Source: Chthoniobacteraceae bacterium
GTDB lineage: Bacteria; Verrucomicrobiota; Verrucomicrobiia; Chthoniobacterales; Chthoniobacteraceae
Direction of reading: 5' to 3'
Assembly (NCBI GenBank): GCA_947471505.1
Contig: CANIWM010000013.1
Span: forward strand, 1 to 64,000
Length of the DNA: 64,000 nt
Part shown: one piece after another, positions 288 to 17,750 of the stretch
Position numbering within the stretch: the first letter of the stretch is position 1
Layout of the letters: each line of letters starts with the position of its first letter
The notes under the pieces: generated by a model
Database searches by the model: none
What the model saw: the letters and a program-made list of their open reading frames with translations, nothing else
Told to the model about the DNA's origin: nothing
Translations under genes and position numbers: made by a program

Positions 288-1142
288 CTAGTGGTGCTCG
301 CCGTGGGCGGGGGCGGGCTGTTCGGCGGCGCGCTTTTTGAGGAGTTCGCGTTGGGCGGCGAAGATTTTCTGCGTGGCGTCTTGTTGGTCTTTGAACCAGA
401 CGTCGAAGTCTTTCTTTTCCTCGGAGGTGTAGTCGGCGCGCATCCCGAAGTGGCCGGCTCCGCAGAGCTGGGCGCAGATGATGTCCCATGCGCCGGTGGT
501 GATAGGGCGGAACCAGAGCGGGGCTTCGAGGCCGGGGGTGGCGTCTTGCTGGACGCGCATTTGCGGGAGGCAGAAGCCGTGGATGACGTCGCGGCTGCTG
601 ACGCGGATGACGGTGGCAAGCCCGTTTTGGAGGTGCATGTTGCTGGTGGCGATCATGTCGTCGGCGGAGTTGGGGTCGTTCGGGTCGATGCCGAGGTTGT
701 TGCCGTCGCCGACGAAGCGTGGGTTTTGTGCGCCGAACTTTTGGTCGGGCCCGGAGTAGTGGAAGAACCAGCCGAATTGGTAGCCGATGGCGCGGATGCG
801 GAGGGGGTTCTTTTCTTCGGTGGGGGCGTCGTTGACGCGCTTGCCCCAGAGCGGGATGGCGAAGCCGAGGAGGATGACGGCTTCGATGATGACGACGCTG
901 GCTTCGAGGTGGGTGGAGACGTGGTTGGTGACGCCGTGGTAGCTGGCCTTGGGGTTCTTGGACGCGCGGAAGCGCCAGACGGTGTAGAGGAAGTAGGTGA
1001 TCCAGCCGATGAAGAGGATGAACATGAACCAGTGGCAAAAGTTCAGCATGTGGTCGATCTCTTTGCCATGCTCGGAGTGGTTGGGCACGATGCCCATGAG
1101 CTTGTTGAGGTCGAACAGGTCGGTAAATGCGGCGAGCGTCAT
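288..1142 (-). CDS. coxB: Cytochrome c oxidase subunit II (CuA subunit)
   Basis: This 284-residue protein takes electrons from cytochrome c through its binuclear CuA centre and passes them to subunit I. Two N-terminal membrane segments (about residues 35-55 and 80-100) precede a periplasmic cupredoxin domain. The CuA ligands are visible: a His in VIHGFC near residue 185 and CAQLCGAGHFGM near 223-234, which supplies the CxxxCxxxHxxM set. The C-terminus is His-rich (PAPAHGEHH) and there is no fused haem domain. It is the last gene of the respiratory cluster. Subunit II usually comes first in cox operons, so its place after subunits I, III and IV is unusual. The family assignment is firm. Confidence 0.95.
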   Translation of the reverse strand: MTLAAFTDLFDLNKLMGIVPNHSEHGKEIDHMLNFCHWFMFILFIGWITYFLYTVWRFRASKNPKASYHGVTNHVSTHLEASVVIIEAVILLGFAIPLWGKRVNDAPTEEKNPLRIRAIGYQFGWFFHYSGPDQKFGAQNPRFVGDGNNLGIDPNDPNSADDMIATSNMHLQNGLATVIRVSSRDVIHGFCLPQMRVQQDATPGLEAPLWFRPITTGAWDIICAQLCGAGHFGMRADYTSEEKKDFDVWFKDQQDATQKIFAAQRELLKKRAAEQPAPAHGEHH

Positions 1143-1558: not shown

Positions 1559-1972
1559 TTAGTGGTGCCAGTGGACGCTGCCGGGGATAGGGTCCGAGTG
1601 GGCGAGGAGGAAGAGGAGGAAGAGCGCGGTGACAAAGAAGAAGGTGAAGAGGAGCGGACGCCAGATGACGGCTTTCTCTTGCTTCAAGTGCATGAACCAC
1701 GCGCCGACGAGGCAGACTTTGAACGTGGCGACGGTGAGGCCGATGACCATGTTGATGGCGGCTCCGTGGACGCCGATTTTGTTGAACGCCCAGATGAAGA
1801 CGGCGATTTTATCGAAATCGATGTAAGAAAGGCCGACGGTGATGGCGGTAAAGATGAAGAGGAGTGCGCCGATGATGAGATAGACCTTCACATGGGCAAA
1901 CATGCTCCCGTGTGCGGCGTCGTGGCCGTGGTCGTCGGCTTTATGGTCAACAGTTGCGGTGTGGTCGGACAT
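1559..1972 (-). CDS. Cytochrome c oxidase subunit IV
   Basis: A 137-residue protein with a His/Asp-rich N-terminus (HDHGHDAAHG type, residues 3-22) and three membrane helices (about 30-50, 70-95 and 105-125). The core resembles the prokaryotic caa3-type subunit IV family, including the WFMHLK segment after the second helix, a hallmark of that family. It follows the subunit III gene with a 6-bp gap. It probably stabilises subunits I and III and has no redox centre. The assignment rests on helix pattern, motif and position. Confidence 0.85.
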   Translation of the reverse strand: MSDHTATVDHKADDHGHDAAHGSMFAHVKVYLIIGALLFIFTAITVGLSYIDFDKIAVFIWAFNKIGVHGAAINMVIGLTVATFKVCLVGAWFMHLKQEKAVIWRPLLFTFFFVTALFLLFLLAHSDPIPGSVHWHH

Positions 1973-1978
1973 GGTGCG

Positions 1979-3109
1979 CTACAGGAGATAGAAGATTGGG
2001 AATACGAAGATCCAGATAAGGTCCACCAAGTGCCAGAAGAGGCCGGAGACTTCGATTCGGTTGCAGAGTTGCTCGGGGTTGGTGTGGAAGAGCTTCGCGC
2101 CGCCTTTGATGGGGAGCCAGAAGTAGATGAAGCAGATACAGCCCGCGAGGACGTGGGCACCGTGGAGGCCGGTGATCATGAAGTAGGTGGCCAAGTAGGT
2201 GTTGAGCTTGGGGACGAGCGGGCCGTGGCCGTGGTTGAGGTCGCGCTTGTCGAGCGTTCCTTTGCCGTGTTCGACGGGCACTTGTGGGACTGGCCAGAAG
2301 TGGGCTTTGTCGTTTTCGGGGTTGTAAGGGTTGGCGTTCTCGGCATCGATGGCGTGAAGCTCGATAGTGTTCATCCGGTGAAGGATTTCGGCTTTCTTGG
2401 CTGGGTCGATGTGCTCTTTGTTCAGCTCTGCAATGTCGGCGTCGCGGACGACGATTCCTTTGAGGGTGACTTCGCGGGTGTGGAGAAGCTTGGCTTTCTT
2501 GGCGGGGTCTTTTTCGTCTTTGCCGAGGGCTATGACGGCATCGAGGTTTGCCTCTGGGACAAACGGGACGCTGGCGGAGGTCATCGCATCCTTGTCGTGG
2601 TCGGTGTCGAGATGCCCACCGATGAAGAGGCGTGGATAGCCTTTGCGGGCCTGGTGCCCATCAATGAGTTTGCCGTCTTGCTCGTGGGCTTCATTGCCGA
2701 GGAGTGGCTCGTATTTGTGGGCAGCTTCTTTTTGGACGTAGGCACCGAAGTGCTTGAACTTCGCGGGCCACTCGTAGGAGAGCTTGATCGTTAAGAAGAG
2801 CAATCCGCACATGAATGTGATGAAGAGCCACACTTTGTACATCCTCAGGTTCCGCATCTTGAGCGACTCCCACGCGAGGATGACGGTCACGGACGATGCG
2901 ATGAGCACGAAGGTGTTGAACGTGCCGACTGGGACGTTGAGCCAGCCTTTTGGCCACATGCCTGGGTCTGCGCCGAGGCGCATGAAGATGTAGCCGGCGA
3001 AGAGACCGCCGAAGAGCATGACTTCGGAGGCGAGGAAGAGCCAGATGCCGAGCTTTGGATTCGCGAGGCCCGTATCGGGACGAGGCCGGACTGTGTATGG
3101 GATTTCCAT
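1979..3109 (-). CDS. coxC: Cytochrome c oxidase subunit III with large hydrophilic insertion
   Basis: A 376-residue subunit III, where the heme-copper family norm is about 200-290. The N-terminal part (LASEVMLFGGLFAGY, residues 26-40) and the C-terminal part (ITGLHGAHVLAG, FWHLVDLIWIFVFPI) are typical. Between them, residues about 120-300 form a charged, helix-free insertion containing two related units, DPAKKAKLLHTREV and DPAKKAEILHRMNT. The insertion falls in the loop between two membrane helices and would project from the membrane. The gene lies 7 bp after coxA. The core family is certain; the role of the insertion is unknown. Confidence 0.9.
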   Translation of the reverse strand: MEIPYTVRPRPDTGLANPKLGIWLFLASEVMLFGGLFAGYIFMRLGADPGMWPKGWLNVPVGTFNTFVLIASSVTVILAWESLKMRNLRMYKVWLFITFMCGLLFLTIKLSYEWPAKFKHFGAYVQKEAAHKYEPLLGNEAHEQDGKLIDGHQARKGYPRLFIGGHLDTDHDKDAMTSASVPFVPEANLDAVIALGKDEKDPAKKAKLLHTREVTLKGIVVRDADIAELNKEHIDPAKKAEILHRMNTIELHAIDAENANPYNPENDKAHFWPVPQVPVEHGKGTLDKRDLNHGHGPLVPKLNTYLATYFMITGLHGAHVLAGCICFIYFWLPIKGGAKLFHTNPEQLCNRIEVSGLFWHLVDLIWIFVFPIFYLL

Positions 3110-3116
3110 GTTTTCT

Positions 3117-5030
3117 TTAGTGTGCTGGCGGCGGCGGCGTGCCCGCTGGCGGCTCGGTTTGCGGTGTGAAGTCTTTTTCGGCTCCGGGGACGCTGTATTC
3201 GTAGGCGGCGCGATAGACGACGATGGGCTTTATGAAATTGCCGTGCGGCGGTGGAGTTGGGGTGTCCCACTCGACGGTGGTGGCGTTCCACGGGTTGTCG
3301 TTGGGGATTTTCTTCCCACGGAAGATGCTGTAGCAGAAGTTGAAGATGAAGACGAGCTGGAACAAGCCGAGCATCCACGCTCCGAAGGAAACCGTGTGGT
3401 TCATGTCGAGATACTTCTGAGGGACGGTGTTGGCGTAGGTGATGCCGCCATCCCACCAGCGGCGATGCACACCAGCCATGCCTTGCAGGAACATCGGGAA
3501 GAAGAGCACGTTGATGAAGACGAGCGACCCCCAGAAGTGAACTTTCCCCAAGAACTCGCTCATAAAGCGGCCCGTCGCTTTGGGATACCAATGATAGCAC
3601 CCTGCGAAGATGGCGAAGATAGTGCCCGGCGCGACGACGTAGTGGAAATGCGCGATGACGTAATACGTATCGTGCATGAAGAGGTCGATGGCGTTGAAGG
3701 CGAGCGGGATGCCGGTGAGGCCGCCGATTCCGAACATCGGCAGGAAGGCGGTGGCAAAGAGCATCGGGGTATTAAATCGGATCGATCCTCCCCATAGCGA
3801 TAGGAGCAGTGCCGTGAGCAAAATGACCGACGGTACGGAAATCATGATCGTTGTCGTCTGGAAAAAGGCGGACACTTTCGGCCCCATGCCCGTCATATAC
3901 ATGTGGTGCGCCCACACGATGAACGACAGGAACGCCAGCACGAACAGCGCGCCGACCATGGCCTTGTAGCCCCAGATGGGTTTGCGGGTGTTGCAGGCGA
4001 TGATCTCGGTAATCATGCCGATACCCGGCAAGATGAGCACATAGACCTCCGGATGCGCGAGGAACCAAAAGAGATGCTGCCACAGAATCGGCGAGCCGCC
4101 GCCAGAGTATTGGGGTACGAGCCCAGCGGCGGTACCTCCTTGCGTGACGACGAGGCCGGTCGGCTGGAAGAACGAGGAGCCGAACACGCGGTCGAACAGA
4201 TTCATCACGGCTGCGGATTCGAGCGGCGGAAAGGCCAGCAGGAGCAGGTAGGCGGTAATGAACTGCGCCCAGCAGAAGAACGGAAGGCGCCCCCAAGTCA
4301 TGCCCGGTGCGCGGAGCTGGACGATGGTGGTGATGAAGTTAATCGATCCGAGCAGGGAGCCAGTGATGTTAAATACCATGCCGAGCAGCCAGAGCGTGCC
4401 GCCATTGGTCCACACGCCGAGCAGATCGCCGTAGGCATCGACACTGCCGGGAAGGTCGGCGATGCCTGCGAGCGGCGGGTAATTGGTCCAGCCCGACTTC
4501 GCGGCACTGCCGGGGACGAAGAAGCTCGCCACCATGAAAATACAACTGACGAAGAAGCTCCAGAAGCTCGCCATGTTCAGGCGAGGGAAGGCCATATCCA
4601 CCGCGCCGATTTGGAGCGGCATGACGAAGTTACCGAAGCCCGCCATCGCGATTGGCACGATGCCGAAGAACACCATGATGGTGCCGTGCATGGCTCCAAA
4701 GACGTTGTAGCCTTGCGAAGAGAGCGTGTAGCCTTTGACTCCGTCCTTCACGACTTCGACGAATACGTTGTCGCCGAAGATCGTGTGCATCAAGCTCCCG
4801 AGCGTGCCCGGCAGCGGCGTGGCACCGCCTTGGGCGATGGTCCAGCGCATGAGCATCATGAGGCAGAACCCGAAGAACAGGAACGCGAGTCCTGTGACGG
4901 TGTACTGCATTCCGATGACTTTGTGGTCGGTCGAGAAGACCCACTTGCGCCAAAAGCCTAGCTCGTGGTGGTCGTCGTGACCGTGGTCGTCGTGATGCCC
5001 GTGGGCGTCATGCGCGTGATCGTGAGCCAT
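3117..5030 (-). CDS. coxA: Cytochrome c oxidase subunit I (aa3-type)
   Basis: A 637-residue catalytic subunit with twelve predicted helices. It holds all the expected ligands: the low-spin haem His in GAMHGTIM, the HPEVY motif with the CuB His and its cross-linked Tyr, the HH pair in WAHHMY, and the high-spin and low-spin haem His residues in IAHFHYV. This is the A-family pattern, so it should reduce O2 and pump protons. The N-terminal 24 residues are very rich in His and Asp (MAHDHAHDAHGHHDDHG), and the C-terminus is Pro-rich. It follows the small cytochrome c gene with a 12-bp gap. The assignment is firm. Confidence 0.97.
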   Translation of the reverse strand: MAHDHAHDAHGHHDDHGHDDHHELGFWRKWVFSTDHKVIGMQYTVTGLAFLFFGFCLMMLMRWTIAQGGATPLPGTLGSLMHTIFGDNVFVEVVKDGVKGYTLSSQGYNVFGAMHGTIMVFFGIVPIAMAGFGNFVMPLQIGAVDMAFPRLNMASFWSFFVSCIFMVASFFVPGSAAKSGWTNYPPLAGIADLPGSVDAYGDLLGVWTNGGTLWLLGMVFNITGSLLGSINFITTIVQLRAPGMTWGRLPFFCWAQFITAYLLLLAFPPLESAAVMNLFDRVFGSSFFQPTGLVVTQGGTAAGLVPQYSGGGSPILWQHLFWFLAHPEVYVLILPGIGMITEIIACNTRKPIWGYKAMVGALFVLAFLSFIVWAHHMYMTGMGPKVSAFFQTTTIMISVPSVILLTALLLSLWGGSIRFNTPMLFATAFLPMFGIGGLTGIPLAFNAIDLFMHDTYYVIAHFHYVVAPGTIFAIFAGCYHWYPKATGRFMSEFLGKVHFWGSLVFINVLFFPMFLQGMAGVHRRWWDGGITYANTVPQKYLDMNHTVSFGAWMLGLFQLVFIFNFCYSIFRGKKIPNDNPWNATTVEWDTPTPPPHGNFIKPIVVYRAAYEYSVPGAEKDFTPQTEPPAGTPPPPAH

Positions 5031-5042
5031 AGTTTTATAGAG

Positions 5043-5531
5043 TTACTTTGCGGGGGCGGCACCTTTGGCCGGAAATGCTTTGAGTTCTGCTTCCGTCCAC
5101 TGCGTCGTGCGAGCGGCGAATTCTTTGCGGACTTCGGCGACGAACTCAGGCGTGACGGCCTCTTTGATTTCGTTGCCGAAATTGGTGCGGACGTAGTTGA
5201 TCACGTCGGCGATGTTTTTGTCGTCTTTCAAAATGGGGAAGGTCAGTTCGGGCTGGGGCATTCCGGTCGCATAGACTTTGCCGTCGATGGTGATGACGCC
5301 CGAGATTCCTTTCAGCACGATTGCCACGACCCGCCGGGCGTCACCGGTGACGTATTCCGTTTTTGAGAGCGGAGGAAATGCGCCGGGGATGCCTTGGCCG
5401 GTAAGTTGATGGCAGGCCATGCAGGTCTGTAAATAGACCATCTTTCCACGGTCGGCGGAGACTTTGATGTCCTCCTGCGCGAATGCAGCGGTCGAAACGG
5501 TAAGAGCGAGGGCGAAGATGATGTTTTTCAT
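5043..5531 (-). CDS. Exported monohaem cytochrome c
   Basis: A 162-residue protein starting MKNIIFALALTV, a clear signal peptide ending near AFA-QED. The start at 5531 is preferred over an upstream frame extension because the extension overlaps the preceding gene and lacks a signal sequence. One haem site, CMACHQ, is followed by a typical class I cytochrome domain with a distal TGMP methionine. It is closely related to the second domain of the adjacent dihaem protein (both carry YVTGD, LKGI and NYVR motifs), so the two probably arose by duplication. It is a likely electron carrier to CuA. Confidence 0.88.
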   Translation of the reverse strand: MKNIIFALALTVSTAAFAQEDIKVSADRGKMVYLQTCMACHQLTGQGIPGAFPPLSKTEYVTGDARRVVAIVLKGISGVITIDGKVYATGMPQPELTFPILKDDKNIADVINYVRTNFGNEIKEAVTPEFVAEVRKEFAARTTQWTEAELKAFPAKGAAPAK

Positions 5532-5541
5532 GATGGCGATG

Positions 5542-6765
5542 CTATTTGGCTGCGGGGAAGTTGAGAAGGTCTGCCTCGGTCCATTGGTCGGCCTTGGTTT
5601 CAAATTCTTTGCGGACTTTCGTGACGAAGTCCGGCGTGATGATGGGCTCGGGTTTGTTGCCCCAGTTGCTGCGGACGTAGTTCAAAACGTCGGCCACGTT
5701 TTTGTCGTTGGCGAGGACGGGAAATGTCAGCGATGGGTTTGGCATTCCGGTGGCGAAAACGGCGTTACCGACTTTGATCGGGCCGACGATTCCTTTGAGG
5801 ACAATGGCCGTGAGGCGACGTGTGTCGCCCGTGACGTAATCCGTTCCGATGAGCGGCGGAAATGCGCCGGGGACGCCGGCGCCGGTGAGTTGGTGGCAAG
5901 CCATGCACGACTGCATATAGACGTTCTTGCCGTTCGCGACGGAGGCGGCGAGGTCGTACGTTTCTGTGACTGGTGCGGGCGCTGGTGAAGCGGCAGGAGG
6001 CGTAGTCGGCTTCGCATCTGCGGACGGTGCGGCTGCGGGCTTTGCAGCAGGAGCAGCGGCAGGCGCTCCGGCGTCGAGCTGGTCGGCTACGGGGATGGCC
6101 TTGATCTCAGCTTCGGTGTAAGGCCCGACTTTATCGGCAAATGCTTTCTTGGCGGCAATTACTTGCGCTTCGGTGACTTCGCCAGCTTTGTTGCCCCATG
6201 CTTGGCGGACGTAAGTGAGGACGCCTGCGAGTTCACGCGGCTTCATTTGCGCGCCAAAGCCCTGCATCGCGGGACTGTTGAAAGTGTTGCCTTTGACGTT
6301 GATGGGGCCGTTCAAACCACGAAGCAAAATAGCGAGTGCGCGCTTCTCGCTGGCTTCGCTGCCGTCCACCCATTCGGAACCTGCGAGCGGCGGGACTGCG
6401 CCGGGCTGCCCTACGCCGGTCGGCTGATGGCAGACTGCGCAGTTGCGGCTGTAAATCTTTTCGCCGAGTGCGACGAGCGGGAGTTCCTCCGCCGCGCCAC
6501 CCGCGCCGCCGGATGCGGGAAGCGGGAAAAACGCCGCAGGGTTACTCTCGTATTCGTTGTAAACCGACGCGCTGAACCCGCCGTGAAACATCCCCACATA
6601 CACGCCTGCCCAGCAGAGCGTCGCTGCGGTGAGTACGCCGAGCCACATTGGGATGGGCATGGTGCCCGCCTGCGGCTCCGCGTGTTCGCGGGCGATGGCG
6701 GCGTGGACTTCGGTAATGTCCGCTGTTTCGCGGTAATCAATACGTTCTTCGTTCGGCTGGCTCAT
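5542..6765 (-). CDS. Membrane-anchored dihaem cytochrome c (CcoP-like position)
   Basis: A 407-residue protein with one membrane helix (about 42-62), then two cytochrome c domains with haem sites CAVCHQ and CMACHQ. The domains are joined by a roughly 50-residue Ala/Pro-rich linker. It overlaps the start of the CcoO-like gene by 4 bp, which fits translational coupling. In cbb3 oxidases the third subunit (CcoP) is also a membrane-anchored dihaem cytochrome, and the neighbours are CcoN- and CcoO-like, so it probably plays that part here. The second domain closely matches the downstream monohaem cytochrome. Confidence 0.85.
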   Translation of the reverse strand: MSQPNEERIDYRETADITEVHAAIAREHAEPQAGTMPIPMWLGVLTAATLCWAGVYVGMFHGGFSASVYNEYESNPAAFFPLPASGGAGGAAEELPLVALGEKIYSRNCAVCHQPTGVGQPGAVPPLAGSEWVDGSEASEKRALAILLRGLNGPINVKGNTFNSPAMQGFGAQMKPRELAGVLTYVRQAWGNKAGEVTEAQVIAAKKAFADKVGPYTEAEIKAIPVADQLDAGAPAAAPAAKPAAAPSADAKPTTPPAASPAPAPVTETYDLAASVANGKNVYMQSCMACHQLTGAGVPGAFPPLIGTDYVTGDTRRLTAIVLKGIVGPIKVGNAVFATGMPNPSLTFPVLANDKNVADVLNYVRSNWGNKPEPIITPDFVTKVRKEFETKADQWTEADLLNFPAAK

Positions 6766-7463
6766 TTCTTTGCCTCCTTAGATTTGGCGACCGGTGCTTC
6801 TTTCAGCTCGTGGCTGCGGTCTAGCGAAAGGAGATACGCTGCGAGGTTGCGAGCGGCTGCAGTGGGCAGCCATTGTTTTTTGCCTTCCACGGCGACGGCG
6901 TCGGGCGAGACACCGGCTCCGATGTCGTGCTTCTCGAAAAGGCCGGGGTTCGACGGGCAGTTCGACGCTTCGGTGCGTGCCCGTGGATTAAAGAGGTGTT
7001 TGTAGATGAACGCTGCATCGCGAACGGCAGGTTTGGTCGGGTCGTTTGGTTGTTCGTTCCTCCAAAAGCGTTTTCCTTCGGAGTCGCGCCAGCCGTAGTT
7101 CCCGAGGTCCGGGCCCATGCGGGTCGCGCCGAGCAGCGGGGTGTCGTTGTAGATGAAATCGCGCGCTACCGTGCGGCGAGCGCCCCAGCCGCGTTCAATG
7201 TCGGGGCCAAACTGCGGGTCGCGGATGTCCTGCGTGTGGCAGTAGTAACAGCCGTTCTCCACATAGATGCGTTCGCCGTGGCGATGGCCGAGGCTGTGCT
7301 CGATCTTCACAGGATACATGTCGCTCGGTGAGTTCTGCCCTTCTTCCCAAACGATTTGCGGCTGGAGCCCGCTGAGTTGGCTATTGGGCAGCAGGACCAT
7401 CACGCTAGTCGAGACGAGGAATGCGCCGAAGATGCCGGTGAAAAGTGTGCTCGGTTTATCCAT
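6762..7463 (-). CDS. CcoO/FixO-like monohaem cytochrome c subunit
   Basis: A 233-residue protein with an N-terminal membrane helix (about 10-27) and one haem site, GCYYCHTQ, in the context typical of the cbb3 oxidase second subunit (IYVENGCYYCH, GPDLGNYG). FixO-family proteins normally pass electrons from CcoP to CcoN. The gene starts immediately after the CcoN-like stop codon. Because that CcoN-like partner lacks its metal ligands, this protein may work in electron relay between complex III and the aa3 oxidase instead of in O2 reduction. The family call is good; the role is inferred. Confidence 0.85.
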   Translation of the reverse strand: MDKPSTLFTGIFGAFLVSTSVMVLLPNSQLSGLQPQIVWEEGQNSPSDMYPVKIEHSLGHRHGERIYVENGCYYCHTQDIRDPQFGPDIERGWGARRTVARDFIYNDTPLLGATRMGPDLGNYGWRDSEGKRFWRNEQPNDPTKPAVRDAAFIYKHLFNPRARTEASNCPSNPGLFEKHDIGAGVSPDAVAVEGKKQWLPTAAARNLAAYLLSLDRSHELKEAPVAKSKEAKK

Positions 7464-9089
7464 TTAGTGTGCCTCCCCTGGGTTGGACATGAGCGTCGGC
7501 TCACCAGCCGGTTGGCCGATGCGCAGGCGCATAAAGATGAAGTGAATCGCGAAAATAATCTGCGCCACGCCAAAGAAGACGTAGCCGATGTAGGTGCGGA
7601 TGACGTGCTGCCAGCCGCCGTTTGCCATGACGTTGGTGAAGATAAACTCGCGTCCGGGATTGGAAGGCGAAGCATCCACTGCGGATTCATTCAGCGTGAA
7701 GCCAGCGGCGAGTCCGCCAAACAGGAACAGCGCAATAATAGTCGCGCCGCCGTAAGCCGTGCCGAGGAAGTGCAGCTTGATGAACGTGCGGGAGAGCCAT
7801 TCGCAGCCGACGAGGCGCGGGGTGATGTAGTAAATCGCCCCAAACATCACCATACTGAAGAAGCCCATGAGCAGCGTATGCTTTACCCCGTAATCCCAAG
7901 TCGTGAAGTGCGTGAAGCTGTCCACTCCGCGCAGCGCGCCGAGCACGCCGAGCCCGGCGGCAATGGCGAAGAACACCGTGCCGACATACGTGAAGCGCAA
8001 GGTAGGGGACGACGCCATTTTATCCGTATGGCCGATCATCGTTCGCCCGATATTCACCGTGAGGCAGGCGATGGGGATAATCGAAAGGATGCTGGCCGCG
8101 ACGCTGATGGTGACGAGATACGCGGGCACCGGACCGCCGCTCAGCTTGGTCATCGCCGTGAGTCCACCAAGGAACACCCAGCCCCAAAACCCGATTTTCG
8201 CGAGGTTGTAGCTGTAGATGGGTTTGTTGATGACTTTCGGGATGAAGTAATAGGCGGAAGCTAGACCGAGGCAGCCGAACCAGAGGTTGAAGAGCCCGCC
8301 TTGATACCAGGCGTTCACGACGTTTTTCATCACGCCGGGCGTCGGGGCGCTGGAGAGCAGGTCCGCGGCTCCGAAGAACCACGGGAAAAGGAAGAACCCA
8401 GCGACCAGATACGACACTGAGATATACGGGGCGACGGTCCTTTTATACCGGAAAAGGATGAGCCCCCAGATGCCGATGCAGAGGTAGCCGATGAACATCA
8501 GCACCCTCGCGCCTCGCACCATCTCGAAGTATTCGAGCCCGGTGTTGTGCCCGCCAAGAATCATGATGACGCCGACCGCGACGCCCGCATTCCAGAACCA
8601 AGCGCCGAGCTGAAGCACGGCGGGAGCCTGAATCGCCACGCGGCAGAGGCGCCCGATGAGCCAAGTGGCGACGCCCATTCCCGCCAGCGAGCACCATCCG
8701 TAAATGAGCGCCGTATTGTAGGCAGGCCAGACGCGGCCATAGGTGAAATTGGAGTCAAAAATCGAGCGGAACAGCCCATCCACGCCGAGCATCCGGTAAA
8801 GCCACTCGGGGCCGAGAATGAAATCGGGGTCGTGCAGCCGCTTCGAGGCGATGTAGCCGAGAACGGTGGAGACGAGCAGCCAGAAAATCGCCGTGCTGAA
8901 GAAAGTAAGGACGGGGCCGCGAGCCGATTGGTCGATGATCGAGCGTTCGATGGCCTCGTTGCTGTGCTGTGGTTCGGCAGGTTTGGCCGGGGCGGCGACT
9001 TTCGCAGGAGCGATGGATGATGGAGGAAGCGCCGCCTTTGCGGGAGGCGAAGGCAATGTCGCGAGCAAGATGGTTTGAGAATCAGTCAT
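7464..9089 (-). CDS. CcoN-like haem-copper oxidase subunit I lacking metal ligands
   Basis: A 541-residue polytopic protein with a Pro/Ala-rich N-terminal extension (residues 1-45) and about 12 helices. The order and framing match cbb3 subunit I (for example SAYYFIPK and MFGAIYYITPRL). The catalytic histidines are missing. There is no HH pair and no histidine in the WYQGGLFNLW segment where CcoN has a CuB His. The helix II haem His is replaced in WPAYNTALIY, and only one His (VKHTLLMG) remains of the HVH haem pair. It therefore cannot bind CuB or a standard high-spin haem. A structural or quinone/haem-relay subunit is more likely than an oxidase. Confidence 0.8.
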   Translation of the reverse strand: MTDSQTILLATLPSPPAKAALPPSSIAPAKVAAPAKPAEPQHSNEAIERSIIDQSARGPVLTFFSTAIFWLLVSTVLGYIASKRLHDPDFILGPEWLYRMLGVDGLFRSIFDSNFTYGRVWPAYNTALIYGWCSLAGMGVATWLIGRLCRVAIQAPAVLQLGAWFWNAGVAVGVIMILGGHNTGLEYFEMVRGARVLMFIGYLCIGIWGLILFRYKRTVAPYISVSYLVAGFFLFPWFFGAADLLSSAPTPGVMKNVVNAWYQGGLFNLWFGCLGLASAYYFIPKVINKPIYSYNLAKIGFWGWVFLGGLTAMTKLSGGPVPAYLVTISVAASILSIIPIACLTVNIGRTMIGHTDKMASSPTLRFTYVGTVFFAIAAGLGVLGALRGVDSFTHFTTWDYGVKHTLLMGFFSMVMFGAIYYITPRLVGCEWLSRTFIKLHFLGTAYGGATIIALFLFGGLAAGFTLNESAVDASPSNPGREFIFTNVMANGGWQHVIRTYIGYVFFGVAQIIFAIHFIFMRLRIGQPAGEPTLMSNPGEAH

Positions 9090-9095
9090 TTCAGA

Positions 9096-9764
9096 TCAGA
9101 CGATTTGCGGTGCTGCGTGTGAATGTTTGGAAGTCGGGGCCGATCCATTTAATAGTGGGGGCCGATCCGGCGCTGGGACGGCATCCGACTGCGCTGCTGG
9201 GACGTTTGACGGCGCGGGTGTTGCCGGAACCGGAGGAGCGGAGATTACCGGGGTCGGAAATGTTATCGTCTTAGCTCCGCCACCCTGCAAGTTCGGCATG
9301 GAAACCGGCGCGTCTGCCGCCGGTGTGATTAAATCCACCTTCACGGCGCTTGCGGCGGGTTTCTTGGCGGCTATTTCAGTAGCTACCGCCGCCATGGCTG
9401 CTTCGAGGACGTTTTTGCCTTCGACAGTCGATTTAGCCGCCAAAAGAGCGTGAGCTTCTTTGTGCGACTTGTCAGCCTCCCGGTAGCGGACAACTCCACG
9501 GAGGTCGTCGAGGTTGTCGAGATTCGGGGTCTTTCCGCCGTTGTAATCCTTCGCCGCGCTCGCAAGAAGGGAGTTGATGCCCTTCTGCTTGTCGGCCTCA
9601 TTACTCTTGGCGAGCAGACCGAGCGCCGTCTTTTGCGGCTCCAGTTCGTTGCTGGCGGTTGGTTTATCCACCCAGCAATAAACGGCGGCAGCCACGGCGC
9701 AGAACGCAGCGATTCCGCCAAGTCCTACGAAAAATCCTCCTGGTGTTGTTACGTTGTGGCGCAT
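9096..9764 (-). CDS. Unknown anchored Ala/Pro-rich protein
   Basis: A 222-residue protein with one N-terminal membrane helix (about residues 9-32), a middle region that is probably helical and charged, and a low-complexity Pro/Ala C-terminal third (about 140-222). No Cys-based haem or metal motif is present. It sits between actF and the CcoN-like gene with gaps of 1-6 bp, so it belongs to the respiratory cluster. No family is recognised. It could tether complex III to the oxidase modules or assist assembly, but that is a guess from position. Confidence 0.7.
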   Translation of the reverse strand: MRHNVTTPGGFFVGLGGIAAFCAVAAAVYCWVDKPTASNELEPQKTALGLLAKSNEADKQKGINSLLASAAKDYNGGKTPNLDNLDDLRGVVRYREADKSHKEAHALLAAKSTVEGKNVLEAAMAAVATEIAAKKPAASAVKVDLITPAADAPVSMPNLQGGGAKTITFPTPVISAPPVPATPAPSNVPAAQSDAVPAPDRPPLLNGSAPTSKHSHAAPQIV

Positions 9765-9765
9765 G

Positions 9766-10971
9766 TTAGTTGGTGAGTTTCAGTGATTCCGCAAGGCGCG
9801 GGTCTTTTGTCGGGAAAGTATATCCTTCGCCGACGTTGCGCAGGAAGCCGAGGCCGAGAATGCCGACGACGCCGACGAGAGTGATGGCGCAGGCAATGAA
9901 CCCGCTAAACGAGAACCCGCCCGGTGCATACTCGGGGATGATGATGATGAAGAGGTCCAAGCACTGCATGAAGATAATCCATGATGCGCAGAAGATGATG
10001 CCACGGTTCTTTTTGAGTCCTTGGAACAGGAGCGGGACAAACATGAAGAAGAACCGACCAAAAACGAGGAAGTGGCTGAAGTAGTTCCACGAACCCGTGT
10101 TCCGCAGGCGGAAGTAGATCGTTTCTTCATCAATGTTCGCGTAGGTGATGAGCATGTATTGGCTGAAGCCGATGTAGCCCCAGAATACAGTGAAGGCGAA
10201 GATGAACTTGCCCATTGTGTGGAAGTGCTCCTGCGTCACGGGCTTGAGGTAGCCGAGGCTTTTCAGCCATTTGCAGACGAGGATGGTCACAGCCATCGAG
10301 CTGCCCGCCGCACCAGCGAAGAGATAGACGCCCCACATGGTCGAATACCAGTGATGGTTCAGCGATTTGAGCCAATCAATACCGCCAAACGTGACTGAGA
10401 GTGCCATGACGGGGATGCCCGCGATGGATGCGGCCCGCATTTTGAACGTGTGTTTCGCCGCACCATCCGTATCTTGCGCCATGCTGCGATTGCGCAGGGT
10501 GCGGGAGAGGATAAAGAGGAGGCCGAAGATGCCAATCGCACGGACCCAGAAATAGGAGATATTTAGATACCAGCCTTTGGTCCCTTTCATCAGCGAATCC
10601 TCCACGACTGGCTGAATCCACGAGTAAAGGAGGTGGGGATTGACGATTAAGATGATGGCAATCGGGATGAAGAGGAGGGCTACACACTTCAGAAGATCTG
10701 CCACGTTTTCATACTGCCGCCGGATGACCACGGACCACTCAGAATCGGTGGCGTGATGGAGACAGTTCCAGAAGAAACACCCAATGCAGATGGTGAAGGC
10801 GAAGAAGAACGCGAACAGCCAGCTAAAAGCGAAGAGCTTCGCGCTGATGAAGGCGATGACGATGGTGCCGACGACGCCCGCAGCGGCCATCCCTTGAAAG
10901 ATGGTTTTCAGCGTGGCTGCCTTTTTGGAATCGAACTTCTCAGAGTTCGGTATGGCGATGTGGTGGCTCAT
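9766..10971 (-). CDS. actF: Alternative complex III subunit F (membrane)
   Basis: A 401-residue integral membrane protein with about ten helices, related to ActC of the same complex. ActF packs against ActC in the membrane domain of alternative complex III, which oxidises quinol and reduces a c-type cytochrome or oxidase. The HHATDSEW and FSQYMLITYANI segments fit the ActF family. It starts 4 bp inside the end of actE (ATGA-type overlap). Its position at the end of an actA-B-C-D-E-F series makes the assignment strong. Confidence 0.9.
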   Translation of the reverse strand: MSHHIAIPNSEKFDSKKAATLKTIFQGMAAAGVVGTIVIAFISAKLFAFSWLFAFFFAFTICIGCFFWNCLHHATDSEWSVVIRRQYENVADLLKCVALLFIPIAIILIVNPHLLYSWIQPVVEDSLMKGTKGWYLNISYFWVRAIGIFGLLFILSRTLRNRSMAQDTDGAAKHTFKMRAASIAGIPVMALSVTFGGIDWLKSLNHHWYSTMWGVYLFAGAAGSSMAVTILVCKWLKSLGYLKPVTQEHFHTMGKFIFAFTVFWGYIGFSQYMLITYANIDEETIYFRLRNTGSWNYFSHFLVFGRFFFMFVPLLFQGLKKNRGIIFCASWIIFMQCLDLFIIIIPEYAPGGFSFSGFIACAITLVGVVGILGLGFLRNVGEGYTFPTKDPRLAESLKLTN

Positions 10972-11630
10972 TTCTTTTCGACGAAGTTCAGTTTCCCCTC
11001 AGCGACTTTTTGCAGCGCGCGGACGTAGGAGACGATGGCCCAGCGGTCTTCCACCGTGATGATCGGTCCGTGGGCTCCCATGGTGTTTTTGCCGTGGGTA
11101 ATGGTGTTAAAGATTTGTCCGTCCGGTTGCTTGCGGATGGGCTCGCTGGTGATGTCGGCGATGGTCATCAAACCAAACGCTTTCACTGGCCCCGTGCCGC
11201 GTCCTGCGAGGCCGTGGCAATGGGAGCAGTTGATGTCGTAGCGTTGCGCGCCCCGACTGACGAGGTCTGCGCCGCGTGTTGCGAGGTTTTCGGGGATGCC
11301 GTCGCCATACATTTCACCGATGCGACCGGTGTTGAAATAGTCGGGCTGATTGGCAAAGCCTCCGGTTCCGCTGACGAGGTTGTTCCCCTCGGTCTGGTAG
11401 TAAGCGCCGGGCAGGATGTAGCCGATAGGCACTGTGCCGGGGATGTGTGCCCGCTCAGCCCGCCCGTCCGCAAAGAAACTACTGCGAACCTGCGCGTTGA
11501 CGCGGGGCTGATGGGCCATGTCGTTGAACCACTCGATGTGGGTCTTTTCGCCCTTTTGGTCGCGGAAACCCGCGATGCCCAAAATGGTCACGACTAAAAT
11601 GATGAATGCTCCAAATCCGATTTTTAGCAT
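10968..11630 (-). CDS. actE: Alternative complex III monohaem cytochrome c, subunit E
   Basis: A 220-residue protein with an N-terminal membrane or lipid anchor helix (residues 4-21) and one haem c site (CSHCHG) in a class I cytochrome fold. ActE is one of the two haem c subunits of alternative complex III and is thought to hand electrons onward from pentahaem ActA. The family-typical PGTVPIGYI region precedes the haem site. It lies 3 bp after actD and overlaps actF by 4 bp. Confidence 0.92.
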   Translation of the reverse strand: MLKIGFGAFIILVVTILGIAGFRDQKGEKTHIEWFNDMAHQPRVNAQVRSSFFADGRAERAHIPGTVPIGYILPGAYYQTEGNNLVSGTGGFANQPDYFNTGRIGEMYGDGIPENLATRGADLVSRGAQRYDINCSHCHGLAGRGTGPVKAFGLMTIADITSEPIRKQPDGQIFNTITHGKNTMGAHGPIITVEDRWAIVSYVRALQKVAEGKLNFVEKK

Positions 11631-11633
11631 GGC

Positions 11634-12197
11634 TTACTCCTGGTCGTAAACAGGCGTGATGTGTGCGCCGCCGAGTGATTCGAGCAACGCTTGGGTTTTA
11701 GTCTCCGAGAACTGTGGGTCGCGGCTCTCAATGATGATGAAGAACTTGTCGTCCGTAACTTTGGCGAATCGGCTCCAGTTAAAGAGCGGATGGTTCAACC
11801 GTGGTAGCCCGTTGCGGAAAATCATACCGAAGACCGCTCCGAATGAGCTGAACAAAATGGTCAGCTCATACATGACGGGGAAGAAAAACTGGAGCGCCTT
11901 GAGTCCGTGCTCCCAGTCGTTCGGCTTGCCGTTTACGATCGTGGGGTAAAGGCCAAAGCTAGTGATGGTGACGAGCCCGAGCCCGGTCAGGAAGCCCGTG
12001 ACTCCGCATACGAAGACGAATGCAGAGAGCCACGATTTTTTCATGCCCATCGCGCCGTCCATCCCGTGAACAGGGAACGGAGTATGGCAATCCCATACGG
12101 TGTAGCCTGCATCGCGGACTTTTTCCGCTGCGTTGTAGATTTCGCGCGCGCTGTTGAATTCCGCGCCGAGTGCGAAGATGCGTTTGTATTCGGCCAT
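11634..12197 (-). CDS. actD: Alternative complex III subunit D (DUF3341)
   Basis: A 187-residue protein with two membrane helices (about 56-80 and 95-120) and the DUF3341 opening in which an N-terminal ferredoxin-like domain reads YTVWDCHTPFPVHGMD. This motif is characteristic of ActD. It helps to hold the complex together and may shape a proton path; it carries no cofactor. It follows actC with a 1-bp gap. Confidence 0.93.
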   Translation of the reverse strand: MAEYKRIFALGAEFNSAREIYNAAEKVRDAGYTVWDCHTPFPVHGMDGAMGMKKSWLSAFVFVCGVTGFLTGLGLVTITSFGLYPTIVNGKPNDWEHGLKALQFFFPVMYELTILFSSFGAVFGMIFRNGLPRLNHPLFNWSRFAKVTDDKFFIIIESRDPQFSETKTQALLESLGGAHITPVYDQE

Positions 12198-12198
12198 G

Positions 12199-13653
12199 TT
12201 AGTGAGCCTCCTTCAGCGTTTCGGGGGCGTGGTCGCCCTCGGGATGATGGTGTGGGTCTGCCTCGGGAATCACGGCTTTGACCTCGAAGATGGTAATCAT
12301 CGGCAGGAAGCGCATGAAAAGCAGGAAGAGCGAGATGAACATCCCGAACGTACCAACGAAGGTGAACACTTCCACCCATGACGGCGTGTAATGCCCCCAT
12401 GATGACGGGAGGAAGTCCTGCGCCAGCGTGGTGCCGATGATGACGAACCGCTCGAACCACATACCCGCATTGACGAACTGGCAGATGACGAAAACCCAGA
12501 TGTAGTTGTGCCGGATTTTCTTAATCCAAAAGAACTGCGGGATGATCACGTTGCACGTCATCATCGCGTAGTAATGCCACGCATACCAGCCAGTCGCTCG
12601 GTTGTAGAACGCGTTGTATTCGTAGAAATTGCCCGCATAGACGAGCGCCACGAACAGCTCCATGAGGTAGGCGTATCCGACGATAGAGCCAGTGAGCAGG
12701 ATGATTTTCGCCATCTTGTCCACGTGGTTCCGCGTCATCATCTTATCGAGCTGCGGATAGAAAAGCCGAGCCGGCAGAAGGAGCGTGAGCACCATCGCGA
12801 AACCGCCAAAGATGGCGCCTGCGACGAAGTAAGGCGGGAAGATAGTCGTGTGCCAGCCGGGAATGACCGACGTTGCGAAGTCGAACGACACAATCGAGTG
12901 AACCGACAACACCAACGGCGTTGATAGGCCCGCGAGGATGAGGTAAGCCATCTCGTAGTGTTGCCAGTGGCGATTACCGCCGCGCCAGCCGAGTGCGGCG
13001 ATGCCGTAAGCGATACGCTTGATTTGTCCCTTCGCGCGGTCGCGAAGCGTCGCGAGGTCAGGAATCAGGCCGACATACCAGAAGAGCACGGAGACGGTGA
13101 AGTAAGTCGAGACCGCGAACACGTCCCAGAGCAACGGCGAACGGTAGTTCTGCCAGATGCCGTTCCAGTTCGGAATCGGGAACAGGAACCAAGCCTTCCA
13201 GAAGCGTCCGACGTGGAAGCCGGGGTAAAGTCCGGCGCACATCACCGCGAAAAGCGTCATGGCTTCCGCCGCGCGGTTAATGGAGGTGCGCCACTTTTGT
13301 CTCGTGAGGAACAAAATCGCCGAAATCAAAGTGCCTGCATGACCGATACCGATCCAGAACACGAAGTTCGTAATGTCCCACGCCCAACCAAACGGCTGGT
13401 TTTCACCCCAGACGCCGACGCCGTTCCCAACTTGGTAGGCGAGCAACGTCGGGACGAGCAGCGCGATCGGCGAGAAGAAGAAGAATGCGATCCACCAGTA
13501 ACGGCGGGTCTTTTCTTCGCAGATGGAAGCCACGTTTTCCGTGATCCACGCGAGTGATTTTCCGTCGTTGACCAGCGGAATCTTCGCGAGTTCCGGCGGG
13601 CAATGCAGGACGACGATTCCGTCCTCAGATGTGTTGTGTGCAGCGGAGGCCAT
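12199..13653 (-). CDS. actC: Alternative complex III subunit C (NrfD-like quinol-binding)
   Basis: A 484-residue NrfD/PsrC-family membrane protein with about ten helices that provides the main quinol-binding site of alternative complex III. It includes family motifs such as [27 protein letters not shown] and WFERFVII. The C-terminus is His-rich ([16 protein letters not shown]). The start codon shares one base with the actB stop, so the two are translationally coupled. The assignment is firm. Confidence 0.95.
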
Positions 13654-16600
13654 TAGGCGTTTGCTCCTTCCTCAAGCGGCTGGCTCCATGCGGGCATGGC
13701 CTTGTTTGGGTTCATGATACGGGCGAGATAATGCACGCGCGGTTTGACACCGAGGTAGTCAAACACTCGGTAAGCACGTGGGTTTTCGATGTCGCGGTTC
13801 ACGGCGCTCTTCGCGTCGGCTTTGTTGCCGAAGGTGATCGCACCGGTCGGGCAGACTTGCTGGCAGGCGACCTTGAAGGCGTCTGTCGGCACTTGGACGT
13901 CGGCGCTGTCCTTGGCTTTCACCTTGGTCGCGATTTTCGCCTCCTGCACGCGCTGCACGCAGAACGTGCATTTTTCCATGACGCCGCGCATACGGACGGT
14001 GACATTCGGGTTCTTCGAGAGCTGAAGCGTGTCCGCCATGCCCTTTTCGTTCACAAGGTTTTGACGGAAATACTTGTCCTTCTGGCGCTCATTGAAGTCG
14101 AAGAAGTTGAAGCGCCGCACCTTAAACGGGCAGTTGTTCGCGCAATATCGGGTGCCGATGCAACGGTTGTAGGCCATCACGTTGATGCCGTCGTCGCTGT
14201 GGACGGTGGCATTGACGGGGCAGACCGTTTCGCACGGGGCGTTTTCGCAATGCTGGCAAGGCATCGGCTGCATGACCATGCGGGCTTCGCCGAGGTCGAT
14301 CTTCTTGTTGTCGCGAGCATTCATTGGCGTCGCGAAGTAACGATCCATGCGAATCCAGTGGAGTTCGCGGCCTTCGATCACTTGCTCTTTGCCGACCACG
14401 GGAATGTTGTTCTCGCTTTGGCAGGCAATCATGCAAGCGGAGCAACCAGTGCAGACCGAAAGATCCACAGCCATCGCCCATTGATGATTTTTATCGTTCA
14501 GCGTCGGGTGGACGTAAGCGCTGCGCGAAACCGGGTAACCCTGCTTGTCGAACTCTTCGGCGTGGGCGTCCATCGCCTTGTGCTCGTGCAGCCAGTCCTT
14601 GTCGCGAGCGTTAAATTTCGGGTCGATGCTTTCGCGGAGAACATCCGGCCCGCGCCCTTCGAGCGCGCCGTGCTCTTGCGTGACTGCCAGCTTGTAGCAG
14701 GCGCGTGCGGACTTTTTCACCGTCGCCGTGGCGACGTAATGATTCGCCGTCGTGCGCAGCGGGTAAGCGTTAAAGCCGACCTCGCCCTTATTCGAAAGCC
14801 AGCCGCCGTGGGACATATAGTTGCCCCGACGACCACCGACACGCCCCTCACTCCCGCGACCGTAGCCAAGTGCAATCGTGATACTGCCATCTGCCGTACC
14901 GGGGATAATGACCGCCGGAATCTCCAGCACGACACCGTTCGCCTCAATGGACAGGAATGCGCCGTTGTCGAAATCAAAGTGCCCATTCCCTTGCTTCGCG
15001 CCGAGTCCGAGCTTCTCAGCGGTCGCAGGGCTCACGATCGCCGCGTTATCCCAAGTGATCTTGGTGATCGGGTCGGGAAGCTCCTGAATCCATGCGTTAT
15101 TGGAGAACCGTCCGTCGTCCACTTTTGCACACGGTGCGAATACGACTTCATATTCCCCCTCCGAAACCTTGTATCCCTCGGCCAGCTTCTGGGCTCCGTC
15201 GGCATTAAATGCCAGCGGCTCTTTTGCTGCGGGGTTTGGCAAGAATCCATCGTGAAGGAATTTCGCCCACGAGACTGCATCAATTCCCCGCGCAACGCCA
15301 TTAAATGTCTCCTGCACCAGTTCCAGACCGTCCGCCTTCTTGCCCTTCGCGATGAAATTGAGGAGTTGAATCTCCGACCATCCTCCGAAGAGCGGTAGAA
15401 TCATCGGCTGCTGCGAAACGTAGCTGCCGTCCGAAGCTGTCCCGTCGCCCCACGCTTCGAGGTAATGAGCAGCAGGAACGTGCCATTTCACAAAGCGGCG
15501 CTTTACCACCTCGCCCGCTTCATCGGCATCGATCGAATAAGTCGTCTCGTCTTCGTAAAAACCGTGCCGCACGACTTCCACGCCCTTCAACAGTGCGCCG
15601 AAGTTCAAATCCGCCGGAGCATTGTAAACCGGATTGCCGCCGAGAATGAAGAGCGTCTTGATCGCGCTCGGACCATTCGCGGGAACGGGATGGCTCGTCT
15701 TGTTGATGACGTTTTCCGCCGTGAGCTTATCCACGCGAGCCTTCTTCTGCTCGGCCGTCTCAAGACCCAGCTTCACAGCCAAATCTTTAATCGTCGCGCC
15801 GCCGCCGTGGCCATGGGTTTTGCGTCCGATGACTGTTTCACCGAGCGCACCAAGCGCTGCATTGATCGCATGACCGAGCGCTTGCACCGCTGCTGGCTGA
15901 CGATAGCCGACGAGCACGAGCGCCTTGCCTTTTTGTGCGACCAAATCTTTCGCTGCTTCGGCCACCCACGCGGTCGCTTGCTCGGGCAACGCCGCGATTG
16001 AAAACTTGCCCACGACAGCATTCAGAGCCGCGTCGTTCGTAGCCGCCGCAATCGCTTTTGCAAAAGCAACCGCCACAGCCCCGACCTTCCCTGCCTGCGA
16101 GCGCAGACGATGGTCCGCCATGCCGCCCGTCGTCGTGTAACGATTCTCGACGACGTAAAGCCGATTCATTTTTTGCTCCGGCTTGCGACGCGCAGAGAAA
16201 GCACGGATACCTTCCAATCGCCCTTCATCAAACCCAAGGAAATCGCAGTCCAGCGACAAAATCACGTCCGCTTTGTCGATCTGCGGCACCGCCCGGAACC
16301 CTTCGCCGAACACCGCGTTGTTCGCGGCTGAGGCCTCCGAACCGCCCAGCGGCTCGTAAGTGACCCACATCGCCTTCGGCAGTTTCGCCGCGACCAATTT
16401 CTGCAACCGCCCGTAGGTCGGCGACGTGAAATGCTCGCTCAAGAAAGCGATCCCCTCCCCGTCCCCTGCCTTAGCGACAACGTCGGCCAACCATTTAGTA
16501 AATTCTGTCTCGTTCGACTCCTTGCCCGCGTGTTGGAAAATCCGCGAACGGTCCGGGTCGTAAAGGTCCAGCAATGACGCTTGGCTCTGCGTATCCGTCG

Positions 16601-17003
16601 CACCTTTATTCGTGGCGTGTCCGGGATTTCCGTCCACCTTCGTAGGCCGCCCATCATGCGTTGTCGCAACCAGCGGGATCGCCCCGCGACGATGCGGACG
16701 CGACGTCGCATAAAACACGGGCTTCCCAGGAACACTCCACTCGGAGCTCTGCGCAAAAGGCACCAGCGTCTTCTCCTCGCGACGGCACGCGCTCAGCGAG
16801 AGGCCCGCCAGCGCAGCACTCGCCGCCATATACTTCATGAAGCCACGACGGCCCACCTCAGAATTCAACTCATGCGCGCCCGGCGAAAACTCGCGGTCCT
16901 GCCACTCCTTAAATTCCGGCGTCTTCGCCAGTTGCCCAAAGCTACGCCAATACTGCGGCCCATTGGCCTCTTCCTGCGGATGTTCAAAAACTCGTTTGCT
17001 CAT
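13653..17003 (-). CDS. actB: Alternative complex III subunit B (molybdopterin-type fold plus iron-sulfur domain)
   Basis: An 1116-residue fusion. The N-terminus has a Tat-type signal ([17 protein letters not shown], residues 52-68) followed by a lipobox-like LSLSAC. Residues about 80-800 resemble molybdopterin oxidoreductases, but ActB proteins bind no Mo cofactor. The C-terminal part holds four ferredoxin-type Cys groups: [11 protein letters not shown] near 850, [13 protein letters not shown] near 912, [11 protein letters not shown], and CTFC with CQQVCP near 1010-1050. These carry electrons from the quinol site to the ActA and ActE haems. It follows actA by 12 bp. Confidence 0.96.
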
Positions 17004-17015
17004 GGTCCGTATCGG

Positions 17016-17750
17016 TTAGCGGTGGCAGCCAGCACAATTGCTGTCCGGCGGATGCACCCCGCGTTGCGCCTTGAAGTGTTCGCCCATGATTTCCTGGGCA
17101 TTTGCAGGCGACAACTTTGCCCCCGCTTTTAGTTTCAAATCTTCCGGCTTCTTGCCCAGCAGCGCCGCCAGCTCTGTCGAGTCCGTCGGGGCCTTCCATC
17201 CGAGGTCCGTCACCTTATCCAGCGGGCGCAGTTCCGACTCCGGCTTCCGATGGCAATCCACGCAAAACTCCATCGTCAGCGACTTCGCCTGATACACCAC
17301 ATCCATCTGGTCCACTCGTCCGTGACACGTCACGCACGACACCCCGCGATTGATATGCACCGAGTGATTAAAATATGCGTAGTCCGGCGTCTTGTGAATC
17401 TGCACCCACTGCACACCCTTGCCCGACGCCCACGCCTGCCGAAGCGGCTCCAACTTCGGGTTATCTTTCTGCACCTGCGAGTGGCAGCTCATACACACCT
17501 GCGACGACGGCAAATTGGAATGCGCCGCCGTCTCCACAAAGCTGTGGCAATACCGGCAATCGATCCCGATTTGCCCCGCATGGACCTTGTGAGAAAATGG
17601 AATCGGCTGAGCGGGCTGATAGCCGATCTTCGTGTATTTCGGGGTGAAATACATCCACACCGCACCCAGAGCGCATGTGGCAAACGCCCCGAGAATCAGG
17701 GCAATTTTAAGCGGCACGAGGTTCGCCCCGCGTTGGAAAATCTGCGGCAT
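17016..17750 (-). CDS. actA: Alternative complex III pentahaem cytochrome c, subunit A
   Basis: A 244-residue protein with an N-terminal membrane anchor (about 12-34) and five CxxCH haem sites: CRYCH (65), CMSCH (86), CVTCH (139), CVDCH (163) and CAGCH (239). Five haems plus first position in an actA-F series identify ActA, which accepts electrons from the ActB clusters. It is the first gene of the cluster, so the promoter should lie in the roughly 150 bp upstream, where a CRP-type palindrome is found. Confidence 0.95.
   Translation of the reverse strand: MPQIFQRGANLVPLKIALILGAFATCALGAVWMYFTPKYTKIGYQPAQPIPFSHKVHAGQIGIDCRYCHSFVETAAHSNLPSSQVCMSCHSQVQKDNPKLEPLRQAWASGKGVQWVQIHKTPDYAYFNHSVHINRGVSCVTCHGRVDQMDVVYQAKSLTMEFCVDCHRKPESELRPLDKVTDLGWKAPTDSTELAALLGKKPEDLKLKAGAKLSPANAQEIMGEHFKAQRGVHPPDSNCAGCHR

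Follow-up and report, generated by a model that had tools for sequence, protein, structure and literature searches.

A CcoN-type oxidase subunit I that has repeatedly lost its metal ligands is kept in alternative complex III operons of Verrucomicrobiota

The respiratory operon of the window

The window, that is, the whole stretch of DNA analysed here (64,000 nt), covers positions 1-64,000 of the forward strand of contig CANIWM010000013.1 from a Chthoniobacteraceae bacterium (GCA_947471505.1). It carries a complete alternative complex III (ACIII) operon, with ActA to ActF all present and in order. The genes run ActABCDEF-X-N-O-P-c1-CoxA-CoxC-CoxD-CoxB, all on the minus strand:

17016..17750 (-): ActA, pentahaem cytochrome c with five CXXCH motifs
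13653..17003 (-): ActB, ACIII iron-sulfur protein with 4Fe-4S domains
12199..13653 (-): ActC, NrfD family (PF03916, 1.4e-23)
11634..12197 (-): ActD (PF11821, 1.2e-55)
10968..11630 (-): ActE, monohaem cytochrome c with one CXXCH
9766..10971 (-): ActF, assigned by position and by conservation in ACIII loci; no Pfam match
9096..9764 (-): X, located between ActF and N, apparently with a single helix and with no known domain
7464..9089 (-): N, haem-copper oxidase subunit I of the CcoN type, 541 aa, lacking the catalytic Tyr and the residues that bind CuB and haem b3
6762..7463 (-): O, FixO/CcoO-like monohaem cytochrome c (PF02433, 7.8e-12), one CXXCH at residue 72
5542..6765 (-): P, CcoP-like cytochrome c, two CXXCH at residues 109 and 287
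5043..5603 (-): c1, small cytochrome c with one haem; in the longest frame its CXXCH is at residue 61
3117..5030 (-): CoxA, aa3 oxidase subunit I, all haem and CuB ligand motifs present
1979..3109 (-): CoxC, subunit III, COX3 matched in two separate stretches
1559..1972 (-): CoxD, subunit IV (PF03626)
288..1142 (-): CoxB, subunit II, with a CuA motif and no fused haem c

From ActA to CoxD the intergenic gaps are -4 to 12 bp, the start of c1 excepted, and O and N adjoin with zero gap; 416 bp precede CoxB. The true start of c1 probably lies inside the listed frame. Among the ACIII loci compared, X is restricted to the close clade of the window. In Methylacidiphilum kamchatkense Kam1 this place between ActF and N is occupied by a 123-aa frame that contains a single hydrophobic stretch (8698-9069 of locus L047). 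The split COX3 match suggests an internal insert in CoxC, which is 376 aa long in the window and 263 aa in Kam1. Outside the respiratory cluster, 19426-25329 is a frame of 1967 aa whose large product looks secreted.

The first-pass annotation of this DNA had placed N with FixO-like and dihaem partners, complex III and a complete aa3 oxidase. This is borne out by the PF02433 match, the CXXCH counts, the Act genes, the CoxA ligands and the CuA motif. The genome of the window has three COX1 genes, namely CoxA, N and a CcoNO.

N has the CcoN fold and lacks the catalytic residues

N belongs to the COX1 family (PF00115, E=1.3e-35, Pfam profile search). Against the ccoN model TIGR00780 it scores 101 bits, below the equivalog cut-off of 583, a threshold that the full-ligand relatives tested also fail to reach (216-254 bits; ligand-less proteins, 22-159 bits). 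In a sequence search of solved structures its best relatives are CcoN chains (E about 2e-22), and no NorB (cNOR-type nitric oxide reductase) is among the matches. The AlphaFold2 model of N (mean pLDDT 84, pTM 0.85), in which residues 1-40 are of low confidence, superposes on CcoN of the cbb3 oxidase (3mk7) with Z 45.7 and 2.2 Å over 451 residues, whereas NorB structures reach Z 39.7 and 37.7. Fold, sequence family and the CcoO and CcoP partner genes all mark N as CcoN-type, and the earlier claim that the fold signatures are retained holds in both the profile match and the model.

The reference for ligands was the intact CcoNO that this genome encodes at a separate locus (L053, contig C119). 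In the alignment, the helix II haem b His corresponds to Y124 of N, and the three CuB His are replaced by Gly, T314 and K315, the latter two in place of the HH pair. The catalytic Tyr of helix VII, of IYIWAGPHH, has become G308, and the His of high-spin haem b3 has become V402. The sole metal ligand left is H404, the helix X haem b His, so that one of the two low-spin haem b ligands remains. This agrees with the first-pass annotation, which had noted no HH pair, no CuB His and at most one haem His, and had proposed structure prediction and alignment against CcoN as a check; both give a CcoN fold with its ligands replaced. Alternative conserved ligands for haem and copper would have spoken against it. 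A list of the conserved His of the window clade and its sister lineages contains no clade-specific substitute set, and the claim stands.

Ligand-less N across Verrucomicrobiota

Homologues were collected from 241 genomes of the phylum and from 80 loci of GTDB genomes, and ActABCDEF-N-O-P is the ACIII arrangement that recurs among them. In an alignment of 130 N sequences, including a few other C-type oxidases as outgroups, we scored seven catalytic residues, the six His and the Tyr. All seven are kept in 46 proteins and at most three in the other 84; none keeps four to six. Because ligand-less states occur in 84 homologues, the state of N in the window is not a chance occurrence. Lys or Arg occupies one of the two CuB HH positions in 72 of the 84, and 34 of the 84 keep both low-spin haem b His while the CuB and b3 ligands are gone; many of these proteins come from one soil Chthoniobacterales clade, so neither count is a number of events. 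A possible reading of the Lys/Arg replacement is a buried positive charge that stands in for copper.

The haem c sites of the partners are maintained. The CXXCH of O is present at 142 of 142 loci with an O gene (95/95 ligand-less, 47/47 full), and that of P at 84 of 85 ligand-less loci, the exception being a 104-aa partial frame.

Two more groups of full-ligand C-type oxidases occur in the phylum (L039, L043, L044, L045, L046 and L052); they belong neither with canonical CcoNO nor with the ACIII-linked family. Several members lie in MAGs labelled Prosthecobacter, Acidobacteriota, Blastochloris or Akkermansia (L054, L056, L059, L088, L124, L128 and L130). They are close to members from Chthoniobacterales or Opitutaceae, and the labels look wrong.

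Independent losses of the ligands

Trees of ACIII subunits (ActC+ActF; ActB+C+F) give 11 state changes, a Dollo count of 11 losses, and the ACIII tree has eight independent pairs of full and lost loci on well-supported branches. The figure of 11 depends on the ACIII genes tracking the descent of N, since the tree of N alone with all rows gives only three changes. In that tree most ligand-less proteins group together, several of them on very long branches. When the longest branches are left out, the N tree has five losses and places L034 beside L132 and L116 with 99% clade support.

A single origin of the ligand-less form was rejected for this reason: the three-change tree had joined long branches. 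It is also countered by pairwise scores, in which the nearest N of L034, L149, L115, L142, L035 and L036, their own duplicates apart, are full-ligand proteins. We take five independent losses as a safe minimum and 11 as the likely number on these trees, in which some placements, above all that of the Methylacidiphilum row, are uncertain.

Rate of change and selection

Loss of the ligands coincides with rapid change of N. Between L034 and L132, the latter with all ligands, ActC is 94% and ActF 91% conserved, and N 48%. Where both loci of a pair are full-ligand, the conservation of N is close to that of ActF or higher, as in a pair with 74% vs 59%. In full/lost pairs N falls far under ActF (48/91, 59/77, 57/73 and 38/68%). 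In lost/lost pairs the two are again similar, with N at 67-94% and ActF at 65-97% (N/ActF 80/84, 82/88, 94/97 and 74/71). Between the window and its 97% relative L054, dN/dS is 0.056 for N, 0.046 for ActC and 0.040 for ActF. In addition, the reading frame of N is full-length in most homologues. The burst at loss with constraint thereafter, together with the dN/dS of 0.056, points to a remaining function and not to decay. N thus combines lost catalytic residues with persistent purifying selection, as a pseudoenzyme does.

Other oxidases in the same genomes

Genomes G001 and G146 (99% and 98% complete) have no COX1 gene besides a full-ligand N, and no cytochrome bd. By elimination, full-ligand N is the oxidase there, and on this gene content it is most likely an active one. 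Their loci, L157 (G001, 1.7 Mb) and L158 (G146, 1.3 Mb), each encode a candidate for a C-type oxidase that receives its electrons from ACIII and has no other haem-copper or bd oxidase beside it. At least one other COX1 gene is present in every ligand-less genome examined; that no genome has ligand-less N alone is statistically weak, because only two of about 18 full-ligand genomes rely solely on N.

The first-pass annotation had suggested that N became a structural or electron-relay unit linking complex III to the aa3 oxidase. Such a unit is still the preferred interpretation, but the adjacent aa3 as the general reason for the loss is not upheld. Of the ligand-less loci with sufficient flank, 33 of 55 have aa3 genes downstream of N, as do 3 of 21 full ones, yet the independent pairs on the ACIII tree show no link between adjacent aa3 and ligand loss, and we rejected the tie that the raw counts had suggested. 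Since adjacency is neither the rule nor linked to loss, joining a neighbouring aa3 cannot be the general cause. Elsewhere in the phylum, therefore, electrons may go to an oxidase whose genes lie at a different locus.

Discussion

Judged by its sequence, ligand-less N is a real, recurrent pseudo-oxidase, and loss of catalysis with retention in an ACIII-oxidase operon is strongly supported; the mechanism that we propose for it is moderately supported. We consider it fairly probable that N, once the core of an oxidase, has been retired to a non-catalytic module of ACIII, in which it holds O and P in place so that they can transfer electrons to aa3. According to this proposal, N-O-P would go back to an oxygen reductase of the C family (cbb3-like), and its genes would have become part of the ACIII operon early in the history of Verrucomicrobiota. 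N would then have lost its binuclear centre in many lineages, that of the window among them, while another oxidase reduced oxygen, and N-O-P would have stayed as a non-catalytic part of ACIII. N would serve as a membrane platform for the c-type cytochromes O and P, here perhaps also c1. O and P would receive electrons from the haem wire of ActA and ActE and hand them on to CuA of aa3, with or without a soluble cytochrome in between. We infer this relay role of N-O-P, and with it the docking of O and P on N, the electron path and the association with ACIII and aa3. Since one haem b ligand is left in N of the window, the relay cofactors would hardly lie in N; the c-haems of O, P and c1 would take this part, and through them electrons from ACIII could reach CuA. 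A broader claim, that a non-catalytic subunit I with 5 to 11 or more independent origins is widespread as a dedicated coupling subunit of complexes III and IV (a supercomplex linker), we hold at about even chances.

Four rival explanations were weighed. N might be an assembly or stability factor only, required for inserting or maturing O and P or ACIII but taking no part in steady-state electron flow. In canonical cbb3 oxidases CcoN is the platform for CcoO and CcoP, and an N without most cofactor ligands, as in the window clade, would suit such a factor. However, its operon position and a constraint like that of ActC and ActF are better suited to a permanent subunit, and we think this explanation unlikely. 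We are more doubtful still that N holds a single low-spin haem b with a redox or quinol-related role of its own. The 34 ligand-less proteins with both low-spin His would permit it, but the window clade has Tyr at the helix II position, and some sister lineages Cys or Phe there, so that one His is left; many other losses retain neither.

The remaining two explanations appear very improbable, and to a similar degree. Accelerated change at each loss is what might be seen in a decaying relic retained only through its operon, but the low dN/dS, the mostly full-length frames, the renewed slowing and the retention of N after 5 to 11 losses all contradict decay. An active enzyme with replacement ligands, be it an oxidase, an NO reductase or another enzyme, has precedent in haem-copper relatives with altered active sites, and a few members of the family keep one or two ligands (HHGQHFI, YHVYYHH, YAYAHEH). 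No new His is conserved, however, the substitutions vary by lineage, and Lys or Arg stands at the HH pair in 72 of 84.

Haem-copper oxidases are defined by their binuclear centre. Its repeated loss with the subunit kept reveals a second, selectable role of the protein. This role can be put directly to the test in close pairs that share the operon, one member having the centre and the other not (L034/L132, L149/L145 and L115/L071). In addition, ligand-less members pass the Pfam COX1 profile, and annotation that relies on it will miscount terminal oxidases. The ACIII and C-type neighbourhood has already been reported; ligand loss is not described in the literature searched. That search, which covered few subscription papers, returned no description of a ligand-less CcoN or pseudo-oxidase.

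Comparison with known systems

The nearest relative of known structure is CcoN of cbb3 oxidases (3mk7, 8smr, 6xkw). N shares its fold (451 residues, Z 45.7), the COX1 family and CcoO- and CcoP-like partners, and differs in having no CuB or b3 ligands, no catalytic Tyr and one haem b ligand.

A C-type oxidase neighbouring ACIII was already known in Opitutaceae (Refojo et al. 2010, as cited in PMC8498564), and in verrucomicrobial methanotrophs a cbb3 oxidase beside ACIII has been described (PMC6688271, PMC8498564) and connected with high oxygen affinity (PMC6688271). These loci have the same ActABCDEF-N-O-P order, and their full-ligand members are homologous to N. Both papers take the protein as a working cbb3 oxidase, but many members lack the ligands, including that of Kam1 (G152:C1:355000-374500, L047), where the order is ActABCDEF-N-O-P-CoxA-CoxC-CoxB. 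N of Kam1 has S, E, S, H, F and V at the six His positions. The other COX1 genes of this genome are two A-type (one is CoxA of the ACIII cluster), one B-like and one unmatched in NCBIfam, presumably the reported NorB; no second CcoN gene was found among them. As encoded, the ACIII-linked subunit I of Kam1 cannot form the known active site, and its sequence lends no support to an active cbb3 oxidase. The gene-based physiology that credits Methylacidiphilum with a cbb3 oxidase (PMC6688271, PMC8498564) is corrected accordingly by the Kam1 sequence.

Pseudoenzymes in general (reviewed in PMC10211241) have likewise lost catalytic residues while the gene is kept under selection, and our literature search found no haem-copper oxidase among them. 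In ACIII-oxidase supercomplexes, electrons are transferred via bound haem c domains (PMC5928083, PMC8361435). The ACIII-aa3/caa3 supercomplexes of Flavobacterium johnsoniae and Rhodothermus marinus (PMC8361435, PMC5928083) pair ACIII with an adjacent A-type oxidase, as in the window. In those complexes cytochrome domains of ActA or of subunit II form the link, whereas the window has the extra N-O-P and a CoxB without fused haem c. N-O-P probably supplies the link between ACIII and the oxidase here, with N as its membrane platform.
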